Below are positions 5,433 to 36,687 of a stretch of DNA of 64,000 nt, in pieces. Numbering within the stretch: the first letter of the stretch is position 1; every line of letters starts with the position of its first letter. The position numbers and the translations under genes were made by a program. The notes beneath the pieces are model-generated. The model was not told the DNA's origin. It did not search any database and worked only from the letters and a program-made list of their open reading frames with translations. Origin of the DNA: Nocardioides conyzicola. Lineage in GTDB: Bacteria > Actinomycetota > Actinomycetes > Propionibacteriales > Nocardioidaceae. The stretch lies in contig NZ_BAABKM010000002.1 in the NCBI RefSeq assembly GCF_039543825.1, forward strand, positions 248,001 through 312,000. Direction: 5' to 3'.

Positions 5433-5791
5433 TGGACGCCACCCTGACCTTCACCGTCGCCGACGACGACACCGCGATCGCCGTCGGCTCCGGCAGCCTG
5501 CCGGTGCTCGGCACCCCCCGGCTGCTCGCGTGGTGCGAGGCGGCGACCTGCGCCGCGATCGACCCGACCCTGCCCGCCGGCTCCACGAGCGTCGGCACCC
5601 GCGTCGAGCTCGAGCACCTCGCCGCGAGCAAGGTCGGCCAGGAGGTCGAGGTCACCGCGTCGGCGACGTACGTCGACGGGCGCCTGCACCGCTTCACCGT
5701 CGCCGCGCGCAACATCGGCGGCAAGGTCGTCGGCACCGGCGAGATCACCCGGCTGGTCGTCGACGGCGAGCGGTTCCTGGGGCGGCTGTGA
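5432..5791 (+). CDS. FlK-like hot-dog thioesterase
   Basis: 119 residues beginning at a GTG that shares one base with the TAG of the preceding gene. It is a single hot-dog domain: VLGTPRLLAWCEAATCAAID (central helix with Glu) and STSVGTRVELEHLAASKVGQ with a conserved Thr and His, the pattern of fluoroacetyl-CoA thioesterase FlK and its many actinobacterial relatives. Most of these hydrolyse unknown acyl-CoAs. Last gene of a three-gene unit; a perfect palindrome follows 7 bp downstream. Confidence 0.8.
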   Translation: MDATLTFTVADDDTAIAVGSGSLPVLGTPRLLAWCEAATCAAIDPTLPAGSTSVGTRVELEHLAASKVGQEVEVTASATYVDGRLHRFTVAARNIGGKVVGTGEITRLVVDGERFLGRL

Positions 5792-5797
5792 GCGGGC

Positions 5798-5827
5798 CAG
5801 GGATACCCGGTTAACCGGGTATCCCTG
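5798..5827. repeat. 30-bp perfect palindrome between thioesterase gene and bL37
   Basis: The 15-bp arm CAGGGATACCCGGTT is followed directly by its exact reverse complement with no spacer. It may act as a rho-independent-like terminator of the upstream operon (no T-tract) or as a symmetric protein-binding site. Confidence 0.75.
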
Positions 5828-5961
5828 AACTCCTGCGTCACTGCACGGCCACAGAAGTTGATGAAGTGCCCGAGGAGTCAGGTCGATTTCCCACCTGGAC
5901 CCACGTTTGAGAGGATGACCCTTGGCCTCCGGGCCGATTCGTTTCGATCAGGAGGAAAACC

Positions 5962-6036
5962 ATGGGCAAGACCGGCCGCAAGCGTCGCGCTCGCAAGAAG
6001 AAGGCTGCCAACCACGGCAAGCGTCCCAACGCCTGA
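5962..6036 (+). CDS. Ribosomal protein bL37 (24 residues)
   Basis: A 24-codon gene with a near-perfect Shine-Dalgarno (AGGAGG, 5950-5955) 6 nt before the ATG. The peptide is extremely basic (12 Lys/Arg), starts MGKTGRKRR and ends NHGKRPNA. That matches the tiny 50S subunit protein bL37 described in the mycobacterial ribosome. A strong hairpin terminator follows at once, so the gene is probably monocistronic. Gene finders often miss it because of its length. Confidence 0.85.
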   Translation: MGKTGRKRRARKKKAANHGKRPNA

Positions 6037-6051
6037 GCGCACCACATGACA

Positions 6052-6080
6052 GAACCCCCGAACCGTCGGTTCGGGGGTTC
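6052..6080 (+). terminator. Intrinsic terminator after bL37
   Basis: A 13-bp perfect stem (GAACCCCCGAACC with its complement) closed by the loop GTC and followed by TTTC. It separates bL37 from the convergent rsrA gene. Confidence 0.85.
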
Positions 6081-6101
6081 TTTCGTCGGTACGCCGAGGA
6101 G

Positions 6102-6377
6102 CTATCCCTCGCGGATCTGCACCTGTACGGCGCGGATCTTGAAGAGCACCCGCTGGCGCAGGTCGTCGGGCGCCACCTCGGCGCACGACCGGGCCACGAC
6201 GGACTTCACGGTGCGCTGCAGGTCGTACTTCTCCAGGCACGGGTTGCAGCTGTCGAGGTGGACCCGGACCGCGGAGCAGTCGGCCTCGTCGAGCTCGTTG
6301 TCGATGAAGTAGACGATGCGGTCGAGGAACTCGGCGCAGTCGCTGGCGGACGGGTCGGTGCCGTGCTCGTGGTTCAT
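6102..6377 (-). CDS. rsrA: Redox-sensitive zinc anti-sigma factor RsrA/RshA
   Basis: 91 residues. C14, H40, C44 and C47 reproduce exactly the spacing of the zinc ligands of Streptomyces RsrA (C11, H37, C41, C44), in the signature H-x3-C-x2-C (VHLDSCNPC). C34 and C65 are also present. The protein holds SigR inactive until thiol oxidation ejects zinc. Its ATG overlaps the sigR stop by 4 nt, so both are translated together. It ends 22 bp from the bL37 terminator. Confidence 0.93.
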
Positions 6378-23876: not shown

Positions 23877-24695
23877 ATGCCGACCCGGTCCCTCCGCCCA
23901 CTGGCGTACGCAGCACTCACGGCGGTGGCCTCGATCGGGCTGCTGGTCCTCGCGATCGGCAACGGCTGGCTGGGGCCGGACGTGGGGCGCGGCGCGAACT
24001 TCTGCGAGGCGGCGCGCGACGGGTGGGTGAAGCAACGGGCCAACTCCTACTCCAACATCGGGTTCGTCGTGGCCGGTCTGCTGGTGGCGTGGCGGGCGGG
24101 CCGGCGCGACCAGCTGGGTGACGTCCTCCCGACGCACGGCGGGCTCGCGACGGCGTACGCCTGCGTGGTGGTCGTCCTCGGCCCGGCGAGCGCGGCGATG
24201 CACGCGACCCAGGCGGAGCGAGGTGGGGACTTCGACCTGCTGAGCATGTACCTCGTCGCGGCGTTCGCGGCCGCCTACGCGCTGATGCGCTGGTACCGGC
24301 AGGGACAGGTGCTCTTCGCCCAGCTCTTCCTGCTCTTCGTCGCGGCGTGCGAGCTGGTCGGGCTGTACGACGGGCGGGTGCCCGTCGTGGACCAGGCGGG
24401 CAACGTCGCCTTCGCGGCGCTGCTGCTCACGGCGGTCGTGCTGGAGGTACGGCTCTGGCTCCGGGCCGGACGCTCCCCCGAGGCCGTGCCGCGGACCGAC
24501 CTGCGCTGGGGCGCGGCCTCGCTCGCGGCCATCCTCGTCGCCTTCACGATCTGGAACGTCACCAAGTCGCTGTGGTGCGACCCGCACTCCCTGCTCCAGG
24601 GACACGCCGCCTGGCACCTGCTCGACGCCCTTTCGGCGTACCTGCTGTTCCGCCTGTGGACAAGCGAGATCGCTCGTCCGGGTGAGCCCGGGTAA
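23877..24695 (+). CDS. Ceramidase/CREST superfamily membrane protein
   Basis: 272 residues with seven predicted helices. CREST hydrolase motifs: NFCEAARDG near residue 42, QRANSYSNIGFVVAGL (conserved Ser/Asn), GPASAAMHAT (His), DLLSMYLVA (Asp), and a late HAAWHLLDALSAYLLFR with two His. These would form a zinc site for amide or ester hydrolysis in the membrane, as in alkaline ceramidases. The bacterial substrate is unknown. Leaderless start supported by TAGGGT. Confidence 0.8.
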   Translation: MPTRSLRPLAYAALTAVASIGLLVLAIGNGWLGPDVGRGANFCEAARDGWVKQRANSYSNIGFVVAGLLVAWRAGRRDQLGDVLPTHGGLATAYACVVVVLGPASAAMHATQAERGGDFDLLSMYLVAAFAAAYALMRWYRQGQVLFAQLFLLFVAACELVGLYDGRVPVVDQAGNVAFAALLLTAVVLEVRLWLRAGRSPEAVPRTDLRWGAASLAAILVAFTIWNVTKSLWCDPHSLLQGHAAWHLLDALSAYLLFRLWTSEIARPGEPG

Positions 24696-24905: not shown

Positions 24906-25325
24906 ATGTCCAAGCAACTCCTGCTCGCACTCGGCGCCGGTGGCGCCGTCACCGCAGCCGTCGTCGCGTCGGCCGCCAGCATCGGATCGGTCAACTCGAC
25001 CGACCTCGGAGCCGGCACCACGGTCGTCGCCAGCTGCGACTCCAGCATCGACGTCGACTACACCACGTCGTACGACAGCACCGAGGGCGGCTACAAGGTC
25101 GCGACGATCACCCTGTCCGGCCTCGCCGCCGCCTGCATCGGCCAGGACGTCACTGTCACCGTGAAGGGTCCGGGCGCCTCCAGCAACGCCTCCCTGGACG
25201 AGGTCGACGGCACGGTGGCGAGCGACAGCGGAACCCCCGCTGCCGCGGTGAACCTGGAGCTGACCCCCAGCACGACCGTGATGGCCGCGGACGTCACCGG
25301 GCTGGCTGTCGTCATCTCCGGCTGA
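24906..25325 (+). CDS. Small secreted protein with SipW-type signal peptide
   Basis: 139 residues. The N-terminus MSKQLLLALGAGGAVTAAVV..ASAASIG..NSTDLGAG resembles SipW-dependent signal sequences of TasA/camelysin-like proteins, with likely cleavage after ASA near residue 23. The mature part is small, Ser/Thr/Val-rich, beta-strand-like, with just two cysteines (C44, C77), a probable disulfide. A dedicated signal peptidase gene follows after 18 bp, so this is probably its substrate, perhaps a fibre or matrix subunit. No exact family is recognised. ATG 24906 chosen because the signal peptide begins there. Confidence 0.75.
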   Translation: MSKQLLLALGAGGAVTAAVVASAASIGSVNSTDLGAGTTVVASCDSSIDVDYTTSYDSTEGGYKVATITLSGLAAACIGQDVTVTVKGPGASSNASLDEVDGTVASDSGTPAAAVNLELTPSTTVMAADVTGLAVVISG

Positions 25326-25343: not shown

Positions 25344-27263
25344 GTGGTCGAGCTGGAGATCCGGACCAGGCGGCGCAGACCGTGGCTGCGCCGCCTCTTC
25401 AGCCTGCTCAGATGGTCCGGCACATTGCTCGTCCTGGTGCTGGCGATCCCCACCCCGTGGGGACCGCCGCACCTCGGGGTCACGGTCGTCTCGGGGCAGT
25501 CGATGCTGCCCACCTACGACCCGCAGGAGCTCGTCGTCACCTGGCGGGCCGACGACTACCCGGTCGGGACCCCGATCGTCTACGGCATCCCGGCCGGCCA
25601 GGCCGGTGCCGGCCTCAACGTCGTGCACCGCGTGGTGGACACCGGGCCCGACGGCACCCACATCACCCAGGGCGACAACAACGACCATGTCGACCCGTGG
25701 CACCCGCGCAACAGCGACATCCGCGGCAAGGTCGTCGTCCACGTCCCGCAGGGCGGCAGGATGCTGCGGATCCTCGGCTCACCGCTGATCCTCGCCGTCC
25801 TCGCCGGGATCATGACGGCCGCCGCCGTGCTCAAGCGGAAGGACGACGAGGACCCTCCCGACGACAGCTGGCGCGGACCGCGCAGGCGCAAGCGTCACCG
25901 TCGCAACACCCCGAGGGTGATGCCGATCGCGTCCCGCGCCGTGGCCCTCGCCGCGGTCACCGGACTCGTGGTCACGGCGGTTCCAGCACGGGCCGCCGAC
26001 CTCGGCGACATCGAGGCCGCCGACCTCTTCGCGAGCACGACGGCCGCGTCGGTCGCCCAGAACCCCGTCTCCTACCAGCAGACCCTCACGAGCGAGACCG
26101 CGACGTCGTACTGCGCGACGGTGGTGGTGACCAACCACTCCGCCCAGGCGGTGCAGTGGGAGGTCAGCCTCAACATCTCCCAGGCGCCGTACAACGCCAC
26201 GACGATCGCGTCGTCGTACAACGCCACGACCGTCAGCTTCAGTGCGACCGTGTGGCGCGTCCGCGGCGTCGACTGGAACGCCGCACTGGGCGCCGGCCAG
26301 TCCTACACCTGGGGCTACTGCGCCAACCGGCCGGCAGGCAGCCTGACCGACGCCAACGCCTCTGTCAGCGTCACCAGCTCCGACCCGCAGTCGTACTGCG
26401 CGACGGTCACCGTGTCGACGGCCGCCGTCAACTGGGTCCACTGGAAGGTCACCATCGGGCACAGCACGTCCGGCGTCACCGACCCGGTCTACTGGCTGGC
26501 GGCCGCGCCCACCAACATCAACAACTCCGCGACCGTCTCCTTCGACGCCGGCACCGGCACCTGGGTGGTCCAGGGCAGCGGCAGCAACGAGTACGTGAAG
26601 TCGGGCACCGACGCGACGTTCGGCTACTGCGCGCCGACCGCCGCAGCGGCGCCGTACACGGACGTGACCCCCACCGTGACCCTCAGCAACCAGGACTCGA
26701 CGAGCTACTGCGCGGACGTCACGGTCTCCACGACCTCCACCACGTGGATCAAGTGGCGCGCGACGATCGACCACACCACGCCCAACCTCACCGCCGCGGT
26801 CTACTGGCTCAACGCGGCGCCCACCGACCTCACCAACGTCTCGTCGGTCGGCTTCAGCGCCACGACCGGCGCCTGGCAGGCCGGGGGCGTCGCCTTCAAC
26901 AAGCTGATCAAGGCCGGTACGCCGGCGAGCTGGCGCTTCTGCGCGCCCAAGAACACGACCGGCGACATCTACACCGACGCGACCGTGAGCGTCTCCATCG
27001 CCAGCGACTGGGGTGCCGGCTACTGCACCAACGTCACGGTCTCGACGACCTCGACCGACTGGATCACCTGGCGCGGGACGATCGACCACACCACCCCTGG
27101 AGTCTCCGCGTCCAGCTACTGGCTGACCTCGATCCCGTCGAGCTACTACGGGGTCGAGTCCATCTCCTTCACGGCCGGCACCGGCACGTGGACGTTCAAG
27201 GGGCTGTCCTACAACTCGCAGATCAAGGCCGGCAGCCCGGTCACCTTCGGCTACTGCAAGTAG
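25344..27263 (+). CDS. Signal peptidase I (SipW/ER type) fused to a second signal peptide and four CBM2-like repeats
   Basis: 639 residues in one uninterrupted frame from a GTG. Residues 1-191 are an S26 signal peptidase: TM about 24-40, catalytic Ser53 in SGQSM, His95 in VVHRVV in place of the bacterial Lys, GDNND at 110-114, TM about 145-163, then a cytosolic basic stretch (RRKRHRR). Residues 193-217 are a second export signal ending AVPARA before ADLGD. Residues 240-639 hold four modules, each bounded by two Cys: 257-326, 352-429, 456-533, 561-638. The last three have an identical 77-residue spacing. Their pattern (YC..VTVS..W..W..TIDHTTP..YWL..GTW..IKAG..FGYC) resembles CBM2 folds. Topology is self-consistent. 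An internal GTG/ATG at 25917/25920 could start a separate protein. Confidence 0.85.
   Translation: MVELEIRTRRRRPWLRRLFSLLRWSGTLLVLVLAIPTPWGPPHLGVTVVSGQSMLPTYDPQELVVTWRADDYPVGTPIVYGIPAGQAGAGLNVVHRVVDTGPDGTHITQGDNNDHVDPWHPRNSDIRGKVVVHVPQGGRMLRILGSPLILAVLAGIMTAAAVLKRKDDEDPPDDSWRGPRRRKRHRRNTPRVMPIASRAVALAAVTGLVVTAVPARAADLGDIEAADLFASTTAASVAQNPVSYQQTLTSETATSYCATVVVTNHSAQAVQWEVSLNISQAPYNATTIASSYNATTVSFSATVWRVRGVDWNAALGAGQSYTWGYCANRPAGSLTDANASVSVTSSDPQSYCATVTVSTAAVNWVHWKVTIGHSTSGVTDPVYWLAAAPTNINNSATVSFDAGTGTWVVQGSGSNEYVKSGTDATFGYCAPTAAAAPYTDVTPTVTLSNQDSTSYCADVTVSTTSTTWIKWRATIDHTTPNLTAAVYWLNAAPTDLTNVSSVGFSATTGAWQAGGVAFNKLIKAGTPASWRFCAPKNTTGDIYTDATVSVSIASDWGAGYCTNVTVSTTSTDWITWRGTIDHTTPGVSASSYWLTSIPSSYYGVESISFTAGTGTWTFKGLSYNSQIKAGSPVTFGYCK
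25917..25922 (+). other. Possible internal translation start (GTG-ATG) for the repeat protein
   Basis: In-frame GTG and ATG fall exactly where the second signal peptide begins (V192-M193). Only a weak GAGG precedes them. If used, the locus would encode an independent 446-residue secreted repeat protein besides the fusion. Confidence 0.35.
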
Positions 27264-30938: not shown

Positions 30939-32099
30939 TCAGGATCGGACGAGCACCCGAGGAGCGGTGCCGAGCCGAGCCGCGGGAGCGGCGTTGGCGC
31001 GCAGGTGGATGTTCTGGAGCAGCCCGATCGCCAGCATGCCGGCGAACATCGAGCTGCCGCCGTACGACACGAACGGGAGAGGTACGCCGGTCACCGGCAT
31101 GATCCCCAGGCACATCCCGATGTTCTGGAAGGCCTGGAAGCCGAACCAGCAGGCGATGCCGGCCGCGGCCAGCCGCCCGAAGACGTCGTCGGTGCGGACC
31201 GCGATCGCGAGCGCCCGCCAGATCACCACCGCGAGCAGCGCGATCAGCACGCCCGCGCCGATCAGGCCGAGCTCCTCCCCCGCGACCGTGAAGACGAAGT
31301 CGGTGTGCTGCTCGGGGACGAACCCCGCGCGCGTCTGGGAGCCGCTGAAGAGGCCCTCGCCGGTCAGCCCGCCGCTGCCGATCGCGATGCGCGCCTGCTC
31401 GACGTTGTAGCCGGCGCCGCGCGGGTCGAGGTCGGGGTTGGTGAACGCGAGGAAGCGCTCGATCTGGTACTGCTTCAGGAAGCCGCCGGCCACCGCGGCG
31501 ACCGCGGCGGTCACGCCGCCGGCGGCGAGCAGCGCGAGCCAGCGGCGCGGGGCACCCGAGACGGCGACGACGCCCAGCACGGTCGCGGAGAGCACCAGCA
31601 TCGTGCCCAGGTCGGGCTGCAGCAGGATCAGCACGGTGGGCACGCCGGCGATCACCAGCATCCCGACGACGTCGCCGACGCTGCCGCCGGCGCGACCCCG
31701 CCGTGCGTCGGCGCGCTCGGCCACCCACAGCGCCATGCCGACGACCACCGCGAGCTTGGCGAACTCCGACGGCTGGATCGACATGCCGCCGAGCTGCAGC
31801 CAGGACTGGGACCCGTTGACGGTGCTGCCCATGGCCAGCACCAGCACCAGCCCGACGACGGAGCCGAGGTAGACGAGGGGGGCGATGATCCGCACCCACC
31901 GGTGGTCGGTGGCCAGCACCAGGACCATGAGCACGAGCCCGATGACGACGTTGACGAGCTGCTTGCGCAGGTACGCCGTGGTGTCGCCGCCGGTGAGGTC
32001 CTCGCGGTGGCTGGTCGCCGACCACACGAGCAGCGTGCCGAGCGTGACCAGCGCCAGGACGGCCAGCGTCAGGATCCAGTCGAGCCGGGGCACCTTCAT
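30939..32099 (-). CDS. rodA: Peptidoglycan glycosyltransferase RodA
   Basis: 386 residues, ten helices, SEDS family. Motifs: WSATSHRED, the catalytic-loop region ASEF-like IQPSEFAKLAVVV, LLQPDLGTMLVL, and the late VPLPFVSYGGSS segment with conserved SYGGSS. RodA polymerises lipid II for lateral wall growth with PBP2. It ends the mreBCD-PBP2-rodA operon, and only 1 bp separates it from the PBP2 gene. Gene order distinguishes it from FtsW. Confidence 0.95.
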   Translation of the reverse strand: MKVPRLDWILTLAVLALVTLGTLLVWSATSHREDLTGGDTTAYLRKQLVNVVIGLVLMVLVLATDHRWVRIIAPLVYLGSVVGLVLVLAMGSTVNGSQSWLQLGGMSIQPSEFAKLAVVVGMALWVAERADARRGRAGGSVGDVVGMLVIAGVPTVLILLQPDLGTMLVLSATVLGVVAVSGAPRRWLALLAAGGVTAAVAAVAGGFLKQYQIERFLAFTNPDLDPRGAGYNVEQARIAIGSGGLTGEGLFSGSQTRAGFVPEQHTDFVFTVAGEELGLIGAGVLIALLAVVIWRALAIAVRTDDVFGRLAAAGIACWFGFQAFQNIGMCLGIMPVTGVPLPFVSYGGSSMFAGMLAIGLLQNIHLRANAAPAARLGTAPRVLVRS

Positions 32100-32100
32100 G

Positions 32101-34224
32101 TCAGTTCTCCTTCGCCGAGCTCGGCGGCAGGATCGAGCCGTCGGCCATGAACGTCGGCAGCCCGGCCGGCGGCGTGGTGCCGGGGATCGCGGCCTTGCTC
32201 GGGTCGACCGTCGTCCCCTTGATGCCGTAGAGCGCCTCCCAGATCGCGCGGACGGCCGGGCCGGTGGTGCCGGACCCGGTGCCCGCCTGGGTCACCATGG
32301 CGATCACGACGTAGTTCTCGTCGTACGTCGCGACCCAGGAGGTCGACTGCTTGCCCTGGACCTCGGCGGAGCCGGTCTTGCCGCGGATGTGGACCCGGTC
32401 AAGCGGGAAGCCGCCGAACTTCCAGGCGAGCGTGCCCACCTTCGGGGTGCCGAGCAGCGCCTGGTCGACGTAGCGCAGGCTCGCGGCCGACGCGTCGATC
32501 CTGCCCTGCACCTTCGGCTTGATCTTCTTGATGGTCGTCCCGTCCGCGCTGACCACGGCCTTCGCGACCCGCGGCTCGTAGAGCGTGCCGCCGTTGGAGA
32601 GGGCGGCGTACGCCCGCGCGAGCTGGAGCGGCGTGACGATGGTGTCGCCCTGGCCGATCGAGTAGTTCACGGCGTCGCCGGCACGGTAGTAGCTGCCCTC
32701 GAGGCAGAACTCGTGCGCGAAGAGCCGCAGGAAGTCGGAGGTGGCCGAGTCGTCCTTGTCGATCTTGCAGTAGTAGGACTTCATCGACTTCCAGTAGCCC
32801 AGCTTCCAGTGCCGGTCGGCGATCCGGCCGGTGGCCTCACCGGGCAGGTCGACCCCGGTCTCGCTGCCGAAGCCGAAGTCCTTGGCCTCGTCGACCAGCG
32901 GGTCCTTCGCGTCGACGTTCTGGGGGTCCGACCCGTACTGCTGCCAGTACTTCAGCCCGACCCGGTAGAAGAACGTGTCGCAGGACAGCTGCAGCGCCTG
33001 GTCGAAGCCGATGAAGCCGTGCGCGGCGGACTCGTAGTTCTTGAACCAGCGGTTGCCGACCTGCAGCCCGGACGAGCAGTCCAGACGGGTGTCGGGGGTG
33101 AAGCCGTTGTTGAGCGCGCCGACCGTCATGATCGGCTTCCACGTCGAGCCGGGGGCGAACTGGCCCTGGGTCGCCCGGCTCAGCAGCGGGTTGTCGGCGG
33201 CGGCCGAGTAGAGGCGGGCGAGCTGCTTCTTGGTGATGCCGCCGACCCAGGTCTCCGGGTCGTACGTCGGCTGGCTGGCCATCGCGACGATCCGGCCCGT
33301 CTTGGCCTCCATCACGACGGCGGCGCCCGAGTCGGCGACGTAGTTCTTGTGCGTGACCGGGTCGTAGGTCTCTCGCGCCTTCGCGATGGTCTTCGCGAGC
33401 TGCCGCTCCACCGTGCCCTGGAGCTTGGCGTCGATGCTGGTGACGAGCGTGTCGCCGGGCTTGCCCGCGACCTCACCGTCGTCGCCGAGCACGCGGCCCA
33501 TCGAGTCGACCGCCACGCTCTTGTAGCCGGGCATGCCGCGCAGCCAGCGGTCGTACTCCTTCTCGATCCCGGCCCGGCCGACCGACGACGCGCCGTTGAC
33601 CGAGGTGTCGTCGTCCTTCCGGGACTGGTCGAGCTCGTCCTCGGTGATCGGGCTCAGGTAGCCGAGCACGTGCGCCAGGTTGATGCCGTACGGCGAGGGG
33701 TAGGCGCGCACGCTCTGCTGCTCGGCGAGCACGCCCGGGAAGTCCTCCGGCTGCTCGAGGACCCGCAGCGCGACGGCCTTCTTGACGTCCTCGGCGACCG
33801 GCACCGGCTGGTACGGCGAGCCGTTCCAGCACACGCCCGACTCCGAGCCTTCCTCGCCGCAGGTCACCAGCAGCTTGCGGATCCGCGGCGCCGACACGCG
33901 AACGACCCCGGCGACCCGCTCGAGCAGCACGCGCTGCTGGTGCTCGCTGAGCTTGGCCAGGACGCTGCGGTCGATCGACACCACCCACGACGTGCGGTTG
34001 GCGACCAGCGGGCGGCCCATGTCGTCGACGATCAGGCCCCGCTGCGGCTGGACCACGACCTCGCGGACCGACTGCGACGTGGCCTGGGCGTGGTACTCCT
34101 CGCCCCCGACGACCTGCAGGTAGTAGAGCCGCACGAAGAGCGTGGCGAACAGCGAGAACACCAGCGCCTGGATCACGAAGAGCCGCAGGCGACCGGTGCG
34201 CTGCGCCGACTTGGGGGGGAACAT
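32101..34224 (-). CDS. mrdA: Penicillin-binding protein 2 (class B transpeptidase)
   Basis: 707 residues. One N-terminal TM (about 13-33), a pedestal/dimerisation domain, and a C-terminal transpeptidase with active-site Ser360 in GSTWK, SxN-like motif in YSIGQGD, and KTGS in RGKTGSAEVQ. It crosslinks new glycan strands with RodA in the elongasome. A long insertion with three Cys and many Lys (about 470-560) precedes YSIGQG. The ATG shares one base with the mreD stop (TGATG), arguing for coupled translation. Confidence 0.95.
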   Translation of the reverse strand: MFPPKSAQRTGRLRLFVIQALVFSLFATLFVRLYYLQVVGGEEYHAQATSQSVREVVVQPQRGLIVDDMGRPLVANRTSWVVSIDRSVLAKLSEHQQRVLLERVAGVVRVSAPRIRKLLVTCGEEGSESGVCWNGSPYQPVPVAEDVKKAVALRVLEQPEDFPGVLAEQQSVRAYPSPYGINLAHVLGYLSPITEDELDQSRKDDDTSVNGASSVGRAGIEKEYDRWLRGMPGYKSVAVDSMGRVLGDDGEVAGKPGDTLVTSIDAKLQGTVERQLAKTIAKARETYDPVTHKNYVADSGAAVVMEAKTGRIVAMASQPTYDPETWVGGITKKQLARLYSAAADNPLLSRATQGQFAPGSTWKPIMTVGALNNGFTPDTRLDCSSGLQVGNRWFKNYESAAHGFIGFDQALQLSCDTFFYRVGLKYWQQYGSDPQNVDAKDPLVDEAKDFGFGSETGVDLPGEATGRIADRHWKLGYWKSMKSYYCKIDKDDSATSDFLRLFAHEFCLEGSYYRAGDAVNYSIGQGDTIVTPLQLARAYAALSNGGTLYEPRVAKAVVSADGTTIKKIKPKVQGRIDASAASLRYVDQALLGTPKVGTLAWKFGGFPLDRVHIRGKTGSAEVQGKQSTSWVATYDENYVVIAMVTQAGTGSGTTGPAVRAIWEALYGIKGTTVDPSKAAIPGTTPPAGLPTFMADGSILPPSSAKEN

Positions 34225-34733
34225 CAGGCGAGCGACCGGTCCGGCTCGAGGTGACGGAACATCGCCATCACCGGCGGCAGCACGAGCGGCGTGAGCACGA
34301 CGTCCCAGAGCACGCCGACCAGCACCACCTCGAGCATCTGGGGGATGCCGATCGGGTCGCCGAGGACGAGCCCCGAGAGGGCGAAGACCGAGGTGCCGAC
34401 GAAGGACGACGCGGCGACCGTCGCGACCACGGTGCCAGCGGTCGGCTGCGTCTCGCGGCGGACCCGGCCGGCGACGTACCCGACGACCACGAGGGCCAGC
34501 GCCCAGCGGCCGGCGAGGTGGTCGGACGGAGGCGCGAGGTCGAGGGCGAGACCGGCGGCGAACCCGAGCACGGCCGCGAACTCCGGGCCGCGGGTCAACG
34601 CGGCGCCGACGACGACGAGCAGGCAGACGTTGGGGACGATCCCGTCCCACGCCAGGTGCGGGAAGAAGGAGACCTGGAGGACCAGGGCGACGCCGACGGC
34701 GGCGGCGGCGACCACGGCACGGAGGAGGTTCAC
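34224..34733 (-). CDS. mreD: Rod shape-determining membrane protein MreD
   Basis: 169 residues from a GTG with GAGG-type ribosome site in the mreC tail. Five helices: [39 protein letters not shown], and others, plus the conserved short motif GxxxDxxP-like GLALDLAPPSDHLAG. It belongs to the MreC/MreD scaffold linking MreB to PBP2-RodA. GTGA overlap with mreC, and a one-base overlap with the PBP2 gene. Confidence 0.92.
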   Translation of the reverse strand: MNLLRAVVAAAAVGVALVLQVSFFPHLAWDGIVPNVCLLVVVGAALTRGPEFAAVLGFAAGLALDLAPPSDHLAGRWALALVVVGYVAGRVRRETQPTAGTVVATVAASSFVGTSVFALSGLVLGDPIGIPQMLEVVLVGVLWDVVLTPLVLPPVMAMFRHLEPDRSLA

Positions 34734-35659
34734 TGGAGGCTCCCTTCGGGCTCGATCACGGAGCGGTCGCTGTCGGTGCCGGACGGGACCACGATCCCGA
34801 CCAGGTCGAGCGCACCGAAGTCGACGTACGGGTCGATGACCGCGCGCTGCGCCGTCTCGCGCAGGCTGCTGTAGACGCTGGTGACACGGCCGACCGGGAC
34901 GCCGGCGACGTACGGGCCGCCGGCCTCGCTCCCCCAGGTCACGACGGTGTCGTGCTTGGCGGGTACGGCGGTGTCGTCGACGAGCTCGAGGTCCAGGCGC
35001 CCGTCGCCGCCCAGCACGCCGCGGCCGTGCAGGAAGCCGACCTCCATGCTCCGGCCGACCCGGCCGCCGACGACGGAGTCGGCGTCCACGATCAGCAGCA
35101 CGGTCGCGGTGGTGCGGGTGACGCGCAGGACGCGGCCGACCAGGCCGTCGTTGTTGACCACGGTGAGGTCGGGGTGCACGCCGGCGTCGGAGCCGGCGTC
35201 GATGGTGACGGTCCGGGAGAAGGACTGGGAGGCGCCCATCCCGACGACGCGGGCCGGGACCAGGGAGTAGCCGAGGCTCTTGGCGGCCGCGGTGAGGCCG
35301 TCGTACTCCTCGAGGCGGTTGCGGTCGTAGTCCTGGGTCGCGACCTGGGAGCGCAGGTCGGAGTTCTCGGCCTGCAGGTCGAGCAGGTCCTGCTGCATCG
35401 AGTCCTTGGAGCGGAACCAGCGCGGGACAGCCGTGAACGGGCGTACGGCGGCGCTCGTCCCCACCTCCACGGGCCCGAAGACCTCGCCGACGGCGCGGCG
35501 GGCCGGGTCGACCGGCGAGGAGGAGAGCGAGTCGAGGCTCATCACCGTCAGGCAGGCCAGCACCAGCGCGACCAGCAGCCCGCGCCGCGGGCGCTGCTGG
35601 TCGTCGTCGGAGCCGCGCCACCGACGCTCCTTGCGGCGGTCGAGCCGGTTGAGACTCAT
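34730..35659 (-). CDS. mreC: Rod shape-determining protein MreC
   Basis: 309 residues. A basic cytosolic N-terminus, one TM (about 27-45), a coiled coil (about 85-115, [16 protein letters not shown] in it), then the beta-rich MreC domain with [11 protein letters not shown] and [13 protein letters not shown]. It forms periplasmic-side filaments that activate PBP2. ATGA overlap with mreB, and 4-nt overlap with mreD. Confidence 0.94.
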
Positions 35660-36687
35660 CCCACCCGCCTGCGGTCGCTGACCAGCACCTGCTGGAGCGC
35701 CTCGAACTCCTCGACGCACTTGCCCGCACCGATCGCGACCGACGAGAGGGGGTTCTCGGCGACGTGCACCGGCATGCCGGTCTCGTGCCGCAGCCGCTCG
35801 TCGAGACCACGGAGCAGGGCGCCGCCGCCGGTGAGCACGATGCCGCGGTCCATGATGTCGCCGGCGAGCTCGGGCGGCGTCTGGTCGAGGGTGCTGCGCA
35901 CGGCGTCGACGATCGCGTGCAGCGGCTCCTCGAGCGCCTGGCGCACCTCGGCGCTGGAGACCACGACGGTGCGCGGCAGGCCGGAGACCATGTCGCGGCC
36001 GCGGATCTCCGCCTCCGGCTCGTCCGTCACCGGGAACGCGGAGCCGAGGGTCATCTTGACCTCCTCGGCGGTGCGCTCGCCGAGCATCAGCGCGTGCTCC
36101 TTCTTCATCCACGCGACGATCGCCTGGTCCAGGTCGTCGCCGGCGGTGCGGATCGACAGGCTGGTGACGATGCCGCCGAGCGAGATGACCGCGACCTCGG
36201 TGGTGCCGCCGCCGACGTCGACGACCATGTTGCCGGTCGGCTGGTGGACGGGGAGCCCGGCGCCGATCGCGGCTGCCATCGGCTCCTCGATGATGTAGAC
36301 CTTGCGGGCGCCGGCCTGGTAGCCGGCCTCCTTGACCGCGCGCTGCTCGACCGCGGTGATGCCGCTCGGCACGCAGATGACCATCCGCGGCTTGGCGAAG
36401 TAGCGGCGGCGGTGCACCTGCTGGATGAAGTAGCGCAGCATCTGCTCGGTGGCCTCGAAGTCCGCGATCACGCCGTCCTTGAGCGGGCGGATCGCGGTGA
36501 TGTTGTCGGGCGTGCGCCCGATCATCCGCTTGGCCTCGTGGCCGACGGCCACGATGTCTCCGGTGCTCTCGTTGATCGCCACGACGCTCGGCTCGTCGAG
36601 CAGCACGCCCTTGCCGCGGACATAGACCAGCGTGTTCGCGGTGCCGAGGTCGACGGCCATGTCGCGGCCGATGAAGCTGTTAGCCAT
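35656..36687 (-). CDS. mreB: Actin-like cell shape protein MreB
   Basis: 343 residues from the ATG at 36687. Actin-fold phosphate loops: [16 protein letters not shown] (phosphate 1), [18 protein letters not shown] (phosphate 2), and the adenosine motif [12 protein letters not shown]. It organises lateral wall synthesis, here encoded at the head of a five-gene operon with rodA and PBP2. An upstream in-frame start at 36762 would add a non-conserved stretch. AAGGCGA before 36687 serves as ribosome site, and TAGCCT about 45 nt upstream may be the -10 box. Presence of mre genes implies a rod stage. Confidence 0.95.

Follow-up and report, generated by a model that had tools for sequence, protein, structure and literature searches.

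A signal peptidase joined in one chain to an exported CBM2-like protein in Nocardioides conyzicola

The soil bacterium Nocardioides conyzicola encodes a signal peptidase of the endoplasmic reticulum (ER) type joined in frame to a second exported protein, which has its own signal segment and four modules resembling family 2 of the carbohydrate-binding modules (CBM2). The gene lies directly downstream of one for a small exported protein, in a 64,000-nucleotide stretch of contig NZ_BAABKM010000002.1 (positions 248,001 to 312,000; assembly GCF_039543825.1), which is the window analysed here. The pair is likely to be a two-gene export system of the SipW type, in which the peptidase trims the small protein and releases the cargo attached to itself. 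Locus-matched cleavage motifs, a gene order kept between relatives, and relatives in which the same parts are separate genes argue for this reading. The features of the locus, in window coordinates, are:

24906..25325, plus strand: small exported protein, 139 aa, the predicted free substrate, with predicted cleavage after A23 (24974/24975)
25344..27263, plus strand: whole fusion gene, GTG start, 639 aa, from frame, relatives and alignment
25380..25445, plus strand: first transmembrane segment (TM1), residues 13-34, behind a basic N-terminus, from structure model and hydropathy
25473..25748, plus strand: S26 catalytic core, residues 44-135, with Ser53 at 25500-25502, His95 at 25626-25628 and Asp117 at 25692-25694
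25782..25832, plus strand: second transmembrane segment (TM2), residues 147-163, from structure model
25836..25928, plus strand: basic hinge, predicted cytosolic, residues 165-195, holding possible internal starts (GTG 25917, ATG 25920)
25929..25994, plus strand: second signal segment, with predicted cleavage between A217 and A218 (25994/25995)
25995..26033, plus strand: mature N-terminal motif ADLGDIEAADLFA, resembling ASIGSVNSTDLGA of the free upstream protein
26061..26339, plus strand: module 1, CBM2-like, residues 240-332, from Pfam CBM_2
26346..26633, plus strand: module 2, residues 335-430, Cys 352/429, from a family-derived module profile
26658..26945, plus strand: module 3, residues 439-534, Cys 456/533, from the same profile
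26973..27260, plus strand: module 4, residues 544-639, Cys 561/638, from the same profile

The fusion gene and its peptidase

The fusion frame (25344-27263, plus strand) runs for 639 codons with no internal stop, as a preliminary description of the window had stated. This alone is worth little in GC-rich DNA, where another open frame of 881 aa overlaps the gene. Rather, the architecture is real because it is common to relatives. A protein search with the fusion gave 33 matches, itself included; the self match and 9 partial proteins were left out, and the other 23 were aligned with the window protein and the genome locus L003 to give 25 rows. These 24 relatives are 33-68% identical to the window protein, carry 2-6 modules, and keep the frame across the junction, ruling out both a chance frame and the sequencing error that might have hidden a stop near 25917. 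Between the window genome and the relative G065, the hinge contains one codon-sized gap and no frameshift, with 7 silent and 14 amino-acid-changing codons among 31. Residues 196-222 show 9 silent and 5 changing codons of 27, while residues 223-240, just after the cleavage site, have changed fast (1 silent and 10 changing of 18).

The catalytic residues are placed as in ER-type S26 peptidases: Ser53 lies in SGQSMLP, and so within an SxM motif; the general base is His95, in VVHRV, rather than a Lys; and Asp117 belongs to a GDNNxxxD box. S53, H95, D111, N113 and D117 are invariant in all 25 rows. In a comparison with SEC11, Ser53 aligns with the SGSMEP motif, and HRV and GDNN align with SEC11C and SEC11A, upholding the earlier assignment to the ER or SipW type. 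The NCBIfam equivalog TIGR02228 (sigpep_I_arch) scored 40.3 bits on the protein and 43.8 bits in the genome scan, under its curated cut-off of 51.85, hence the domain is classed as ER-type S26 but not as a member of that equivalog.

The in-out-in-out topology proposed in the preliminary description is supported by a net positive charge of the hinge in 23 of the 25 rows, and by a structure model with TM1 at 13-34, TM2 at 147-163 and a helix at 196-210. In this predicted topology, the active site would face the same side of the membrane as the second cleavage site, such that cleavage in cis is possible; the linker should allow cleavage both in cis and in trans. The four top Foldseek rows for the fusion, chains of human oligosaccharyltransferase subunits, were disregarded (rmsd >30).

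Cleavage motifs matched within loci

The most hydrophobic 17-mer of the second segment covers residues 199-215 and is followed by ARA/A218 (Ala-x-Ala/Ala), in agreement with the export signal described before. Position -3 is small in 25/25 rows, and A217 is equally invariant at position -1, a column fixed by the alignment itself. TM2 and the site are 37 to 87 residues apart among the fusion rows, and L228, beyond the site, is conserved in 92% of them. Mean conservation is modestly higher near the cleavage site (0.56) than in the hinge (0.46) or the hydrophobic region of the signal (0.42).

The upstream gene, which the preliminary description missed along with the split relatives and the second S26 fusion of this genome, encodes the small protein. 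Its search gave 63 matches, and alignment of 59 relatives with the window's protein (60 rows; the self match, P0067, P0077 and P0079 left unaligned) found A21, S22, A23, C44, D45 and C77 invariant. Of 98 genomes, 7 gave a match to the small protein, and the two weak matches among these, in G053 and G150, were set aside. The small gene stands directly upstream of the fusion in all seven fused loci whose flanks were read: G000, G065, G032, G040 and G078 in the genus, and G183 and G305 in the family. Seven more pairs of small protein and fusion, one in Microbacterium terregens, appear to share a locus, judging from the equal lengths of the contigs that carry them. The small protein is modelled as a beta-sandwich, for which the fold search found no specific known fold, and it matched no Pfam or NCBIfam family at E up to 1. 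The first cargo domain itself resembles the small protein in one split locus (L086, 31.3 bits) and one fused protein (P0035, 42.8 bits). As a separate observation, six distant loci of the same phylum (L093, L095, L096, L097, L098 and L100) hold 2-4 adjoining copies of the small-protein gene, with a stand-alone S26 gene close by in five of the six.

Homologues of the fusion are not consistently two genes, as had been considered possible; fused relatives exist, and there are also seven loci in which small protein, S26 peptidase and cargo are three separate genes in this order (G217, G246, G250, G259, G266 and G382, from another family of the same order, and G046, from the same genus). The split peptidases are of about 190-210 aa, the start of that in G266 being uncertain, and the cargo downstream has its own N-terminal signal. 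Five of the seven split cargos have CBM2-like matches, while those of G246 and G046 were assigned from position and signal only. From peptidase stop to cargo start the distance is -17 to +6 nt, with overlap in five of the seven.

Across these loci, the residues after the two cleavage sites are alike. The majority letters are A[ST][LI]GxVxSTDLGA in the small protein and AxLGxLxSADLxA in the cargo, and the form shared in fused loci is A-A-x-L-G-x-V-x-S-x-D-L. Within-locus likeness of the two stretches was 36.3 over 21 pairs, against 24.8 when shuffled (0 of 20,000 shuffles). The same held for the 14 pairs from fused loci (34.6 vs 29.6; 3 of 20,000) and for the 7 from split loci (39.7 vs 23.3; 15 of 20,000).

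A second fusion in the same genome carries a different motif:

L106 6337-8493: S26 fusion to bacterial immunoglobulin (Ig) domains, 718 aa, with its free partner at 5680-6294 just upstream

Here the fused motif is AGFTARTISPSNTW and that of the free partner AAFSGTTRNSGNDW. Scored with BLOSUM62 over 16 residues, the matched pairs of the two loci gave 34 and 28, and the crossed pairs -5 and -5. These data bear on the enzyme that would cut the cargo. The genome has two LepB-type genes and three with an ER-type S26 domain, namely this fusion, the Ig fusion and one stand-alone gene, and the cargo site fits the general Ala-x-Ala rule for signal peptidases. Hence LepB or the stand-alone enzyme might cut the cargo, with the fusion serving only to fix the ratio of enzyme to cargo. 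However, the motifs of the two S26 fusions differ and each resembles that of its own free neighbour, indicating the local enzyme as the cutter, and making cleavage by another peptidase improbable. The stand-alone ER-type gene has a further candidate exported protein nearby (L104 1414-1992 and 2242-2778, minus strand).

Alternatively, the second site may be left uncut, such that the hydrophobic segment anchors the modules for display on the membrane, and the peptidase serves the small protein only. The best 13-mer hydropathy of this segment, 1.57-2.94 across the fusion rows, does reach values typical of membrane spans. Yet this reading has a distinctly low probability: it is opposed by the constancy of positions -1 and -3, by the resemblance of the site's motif to that of the free partner, and by the split loci, in which a similar site follows an ordinary N-terminal signal.

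Least probable, although compatible with the other readings, is that much of the cargo arises by internal initiation at 25917/25920, the full-length chain being a read-through form. The sequence there, GTG-ATG at 25917-25922 behind a GAGG at 25913-25916, looks like the region in which the split genes start, and makes the initiation raised in the preliminary description possible in this genome. However, only 3 nt separate GAGG from the ATG, all 24 aligned relatives keep the fusion frame, and the three relatives read do not conserve the position of the start pair: G040 has nearby ATGs at residues 194 and 196, G065 only a GTG at 197, and G032 an ATG at 180.

Origin and recurrence of S26-cargo fusions

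In the S26 tree, which leaves out 4 duplicate loci and 5 rows with short N-termini, the main group of 21 fused rows forms one clade (support 99/98), with split genes around it. The fusion is therefore probably the derived state. The best tree groups these 21 rows with 5 split loci, though support for this precise sister group is weak (64/43). A single clade of all 29 fused rows, spanning CBM, LamG, Fn3 and DUF5305 types, was rejected by the approximately unbiased (AU) test (p 0.012). By contrast, grouping all 22 CBM-type rows, the outlying P0035 among them, into one clade was not rejected (AU p 0.391); being compatible with such a clade, the data do not support two separate fusion events of CBM type.

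The full-length fusion was found in 5 of 145 relatives. Order-wide, 8 of 293 genomes match at E up to 1e-20, with 3 fused and 5 split. Other S26-cargo fusions recur in Nocardioides. In 88 sampled genomes of this genus, 57 of 145 peptidase matches (E up to 1e-8) lie in open frames of at least 400 aa, in 44 genomes, and the frame lengths have a two-peaked distribution. This count is rough, and overstated at least once, the G036 frame being that of a stand-alone peptidase, falsely extended upstream. Reading ten further long-frame loci by script gave five long fusions, one stand-alone peptidase only, and nothing in four. Fusion to DUF5305 is a further type in the genus (L008 388-1980, minus strand).

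The fusions to LamG, named 'signal peptidase I' in Nocardioides, share with the window protein an ER-type S26 domain, a second hydrophobic segment and an exported lectin-like domain. Of the 203 such relatives found, the best 120 were examined for a motif. A first pattern fitted 73 of these 120, and in 68 of the 73 a hydrophobic segment was present as well; a looser pattern, drawn up in view of the misses of the first, fitted 108 together with a second hydrophobic segment, and 11 of the 12 rows that it missed show the motif by eye. Each of the six loci read, five of LamG type and one of Ig type, has a free partner upstream of the fusion. Unlike the CBM2-like fusions, those to LamG form a separate S26 clade (96/98), with a motif of roughly AxFTxxT..N..W and another cargo fold.

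The preliminary description knew of no family with this arrangement. No description of the architecture was found among the papers listed by searches of open-licence literature, and one may exist elsewhere; nevertheless, many database proteins have it, under the names 'S24/S26 family peptidase' and 'signal peptidase I', and it is recurrent in the genus.

Likeness to SipW systems and proposed function

The closest known systems are tapA-sipW-tasA of Bacillus subtilis and sipW-calY of B. cereus, in which, according to excerpts of PMC10151520, an ER-type peptidase gene lies beside genes for its dedicated exported beta-sandwich substrates. The same source excerpts have the tapA stop overlapping the sipW start codon, and TapA far rarer than TasA, in an amount similar to SipW. 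Processing of TasA is attributed to the ER-type SipW in excerpts of PMC10269814, where E. coli LepB showed very low efficiency in cutting the TasA signal on maltose-binding protein. In Clostridium perfringens, BsaA export and polymerisation need SipW (PMC7395162, in excerpt). As in tapA-sipW-tasA, the peptidase gene studied here stands beside one for an exported protein, in all seven fused loci read. Unlike that system, peptidase and one exported protein form one chain, the cargo has CBM2-like modules, and neither Pfam nor NCBIfam identifies the small protein as TasA or camelysin. The sipW-bsaA pair likewise has a peptidase dedicated to its neighbour, but as separate genes (PMC7395162, in excerpt). 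By this analogy, the locus is probably a known biofilm-fibre export system in a compact form that processes itself.

Under this SipW-type reading, the first gene would supply the small exported protein, a beta-sandwich by model, and the second the ER-type peptidase joined to an exported protein with its own signal. The peptidase domain, at the outer membrane face, would cut the signal off the small protein, and would also cut between A217 and A218 to free the CBM2-like cargo of its own chain or of a neighbouring copy. Fusion would hold cargo and enzyme at 1:1, presumably far below the small protein, pointing to a minor, anchoring or initiating role of the cargo; once freed, it is probably a minor or adhesive subunit. 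By analogy with TasA and TapA, the first gene may encode the abundant subunit, with the fused cargo as its rare partner.

More tentatively, the cargo could be a minor subunit that releases itself in cis, with an N-terminus, alike to about +13, acting as an interchangeable donor strand. It might then start or tether a filament of the small protein, at one initiator per peptidase, in a design that would have arisen at least twice (CBM2-like; LamG/Ig) and operate with two locus-matched motifs in one cell. Filament formation here is a putative feature, taken from the donor-strand analogy. Joining a protease covalently to its substrate would naturally set the ratio, the timing and the location of an export step, and two unlike fusions with different, locus-matched motifs in one genome offer a way to study the substrate choice of ER-type signal peptidases. 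These loci suggest a matrix or filament system of Actinobacteria masked by the names 'signal peptidase I' and 'hypothetical protein'.

The four Cys-bracketed modules reported in the preliminary description are as described, with pairs at 257/326, 352/429, 456/533 and 561/638 spaced by 69, 77, 77 and 77. Their designation as CBM2-like is right for the fold but weak for the family. Module 1 resembles family 2 in fold and matches PF00553 (CBM_2) slightly above the gathering cut-off (26.3 bits against 24, residues 247-336); this is the single CBM_2 stretch within E 1, modules 2-4 having no Pfam match and 28-31% identity to module 1. W311 of module 1 aligns with the Trp in the GWNGTL loop of ChiC, which presumably takes part in binding, whereas modules 2-4 have Ser, Phe and Tyr there. 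Carbohydrate binding is hence a putative function, suggested by sequence likeness.

A promoter scan gave no promoter-like sites, and the two terminator-like sites given by a terminator scan, both of them minus-strand, were not used in interpretation. Just upstream of the small gene, at 23877-24695 on the plus strand, lies a gene for a membrane protein of the Ceramidase family (PF05875, 55 bits). G065, G032 and G040 have a similar gene in this position, and the flank read of G078 has none. About 4-9 kb downstream of the fusion, at 30939-36112 on the minus strand, are frames that, read by eye, we take to resemble RodA, PBP2, MreD and MreC.
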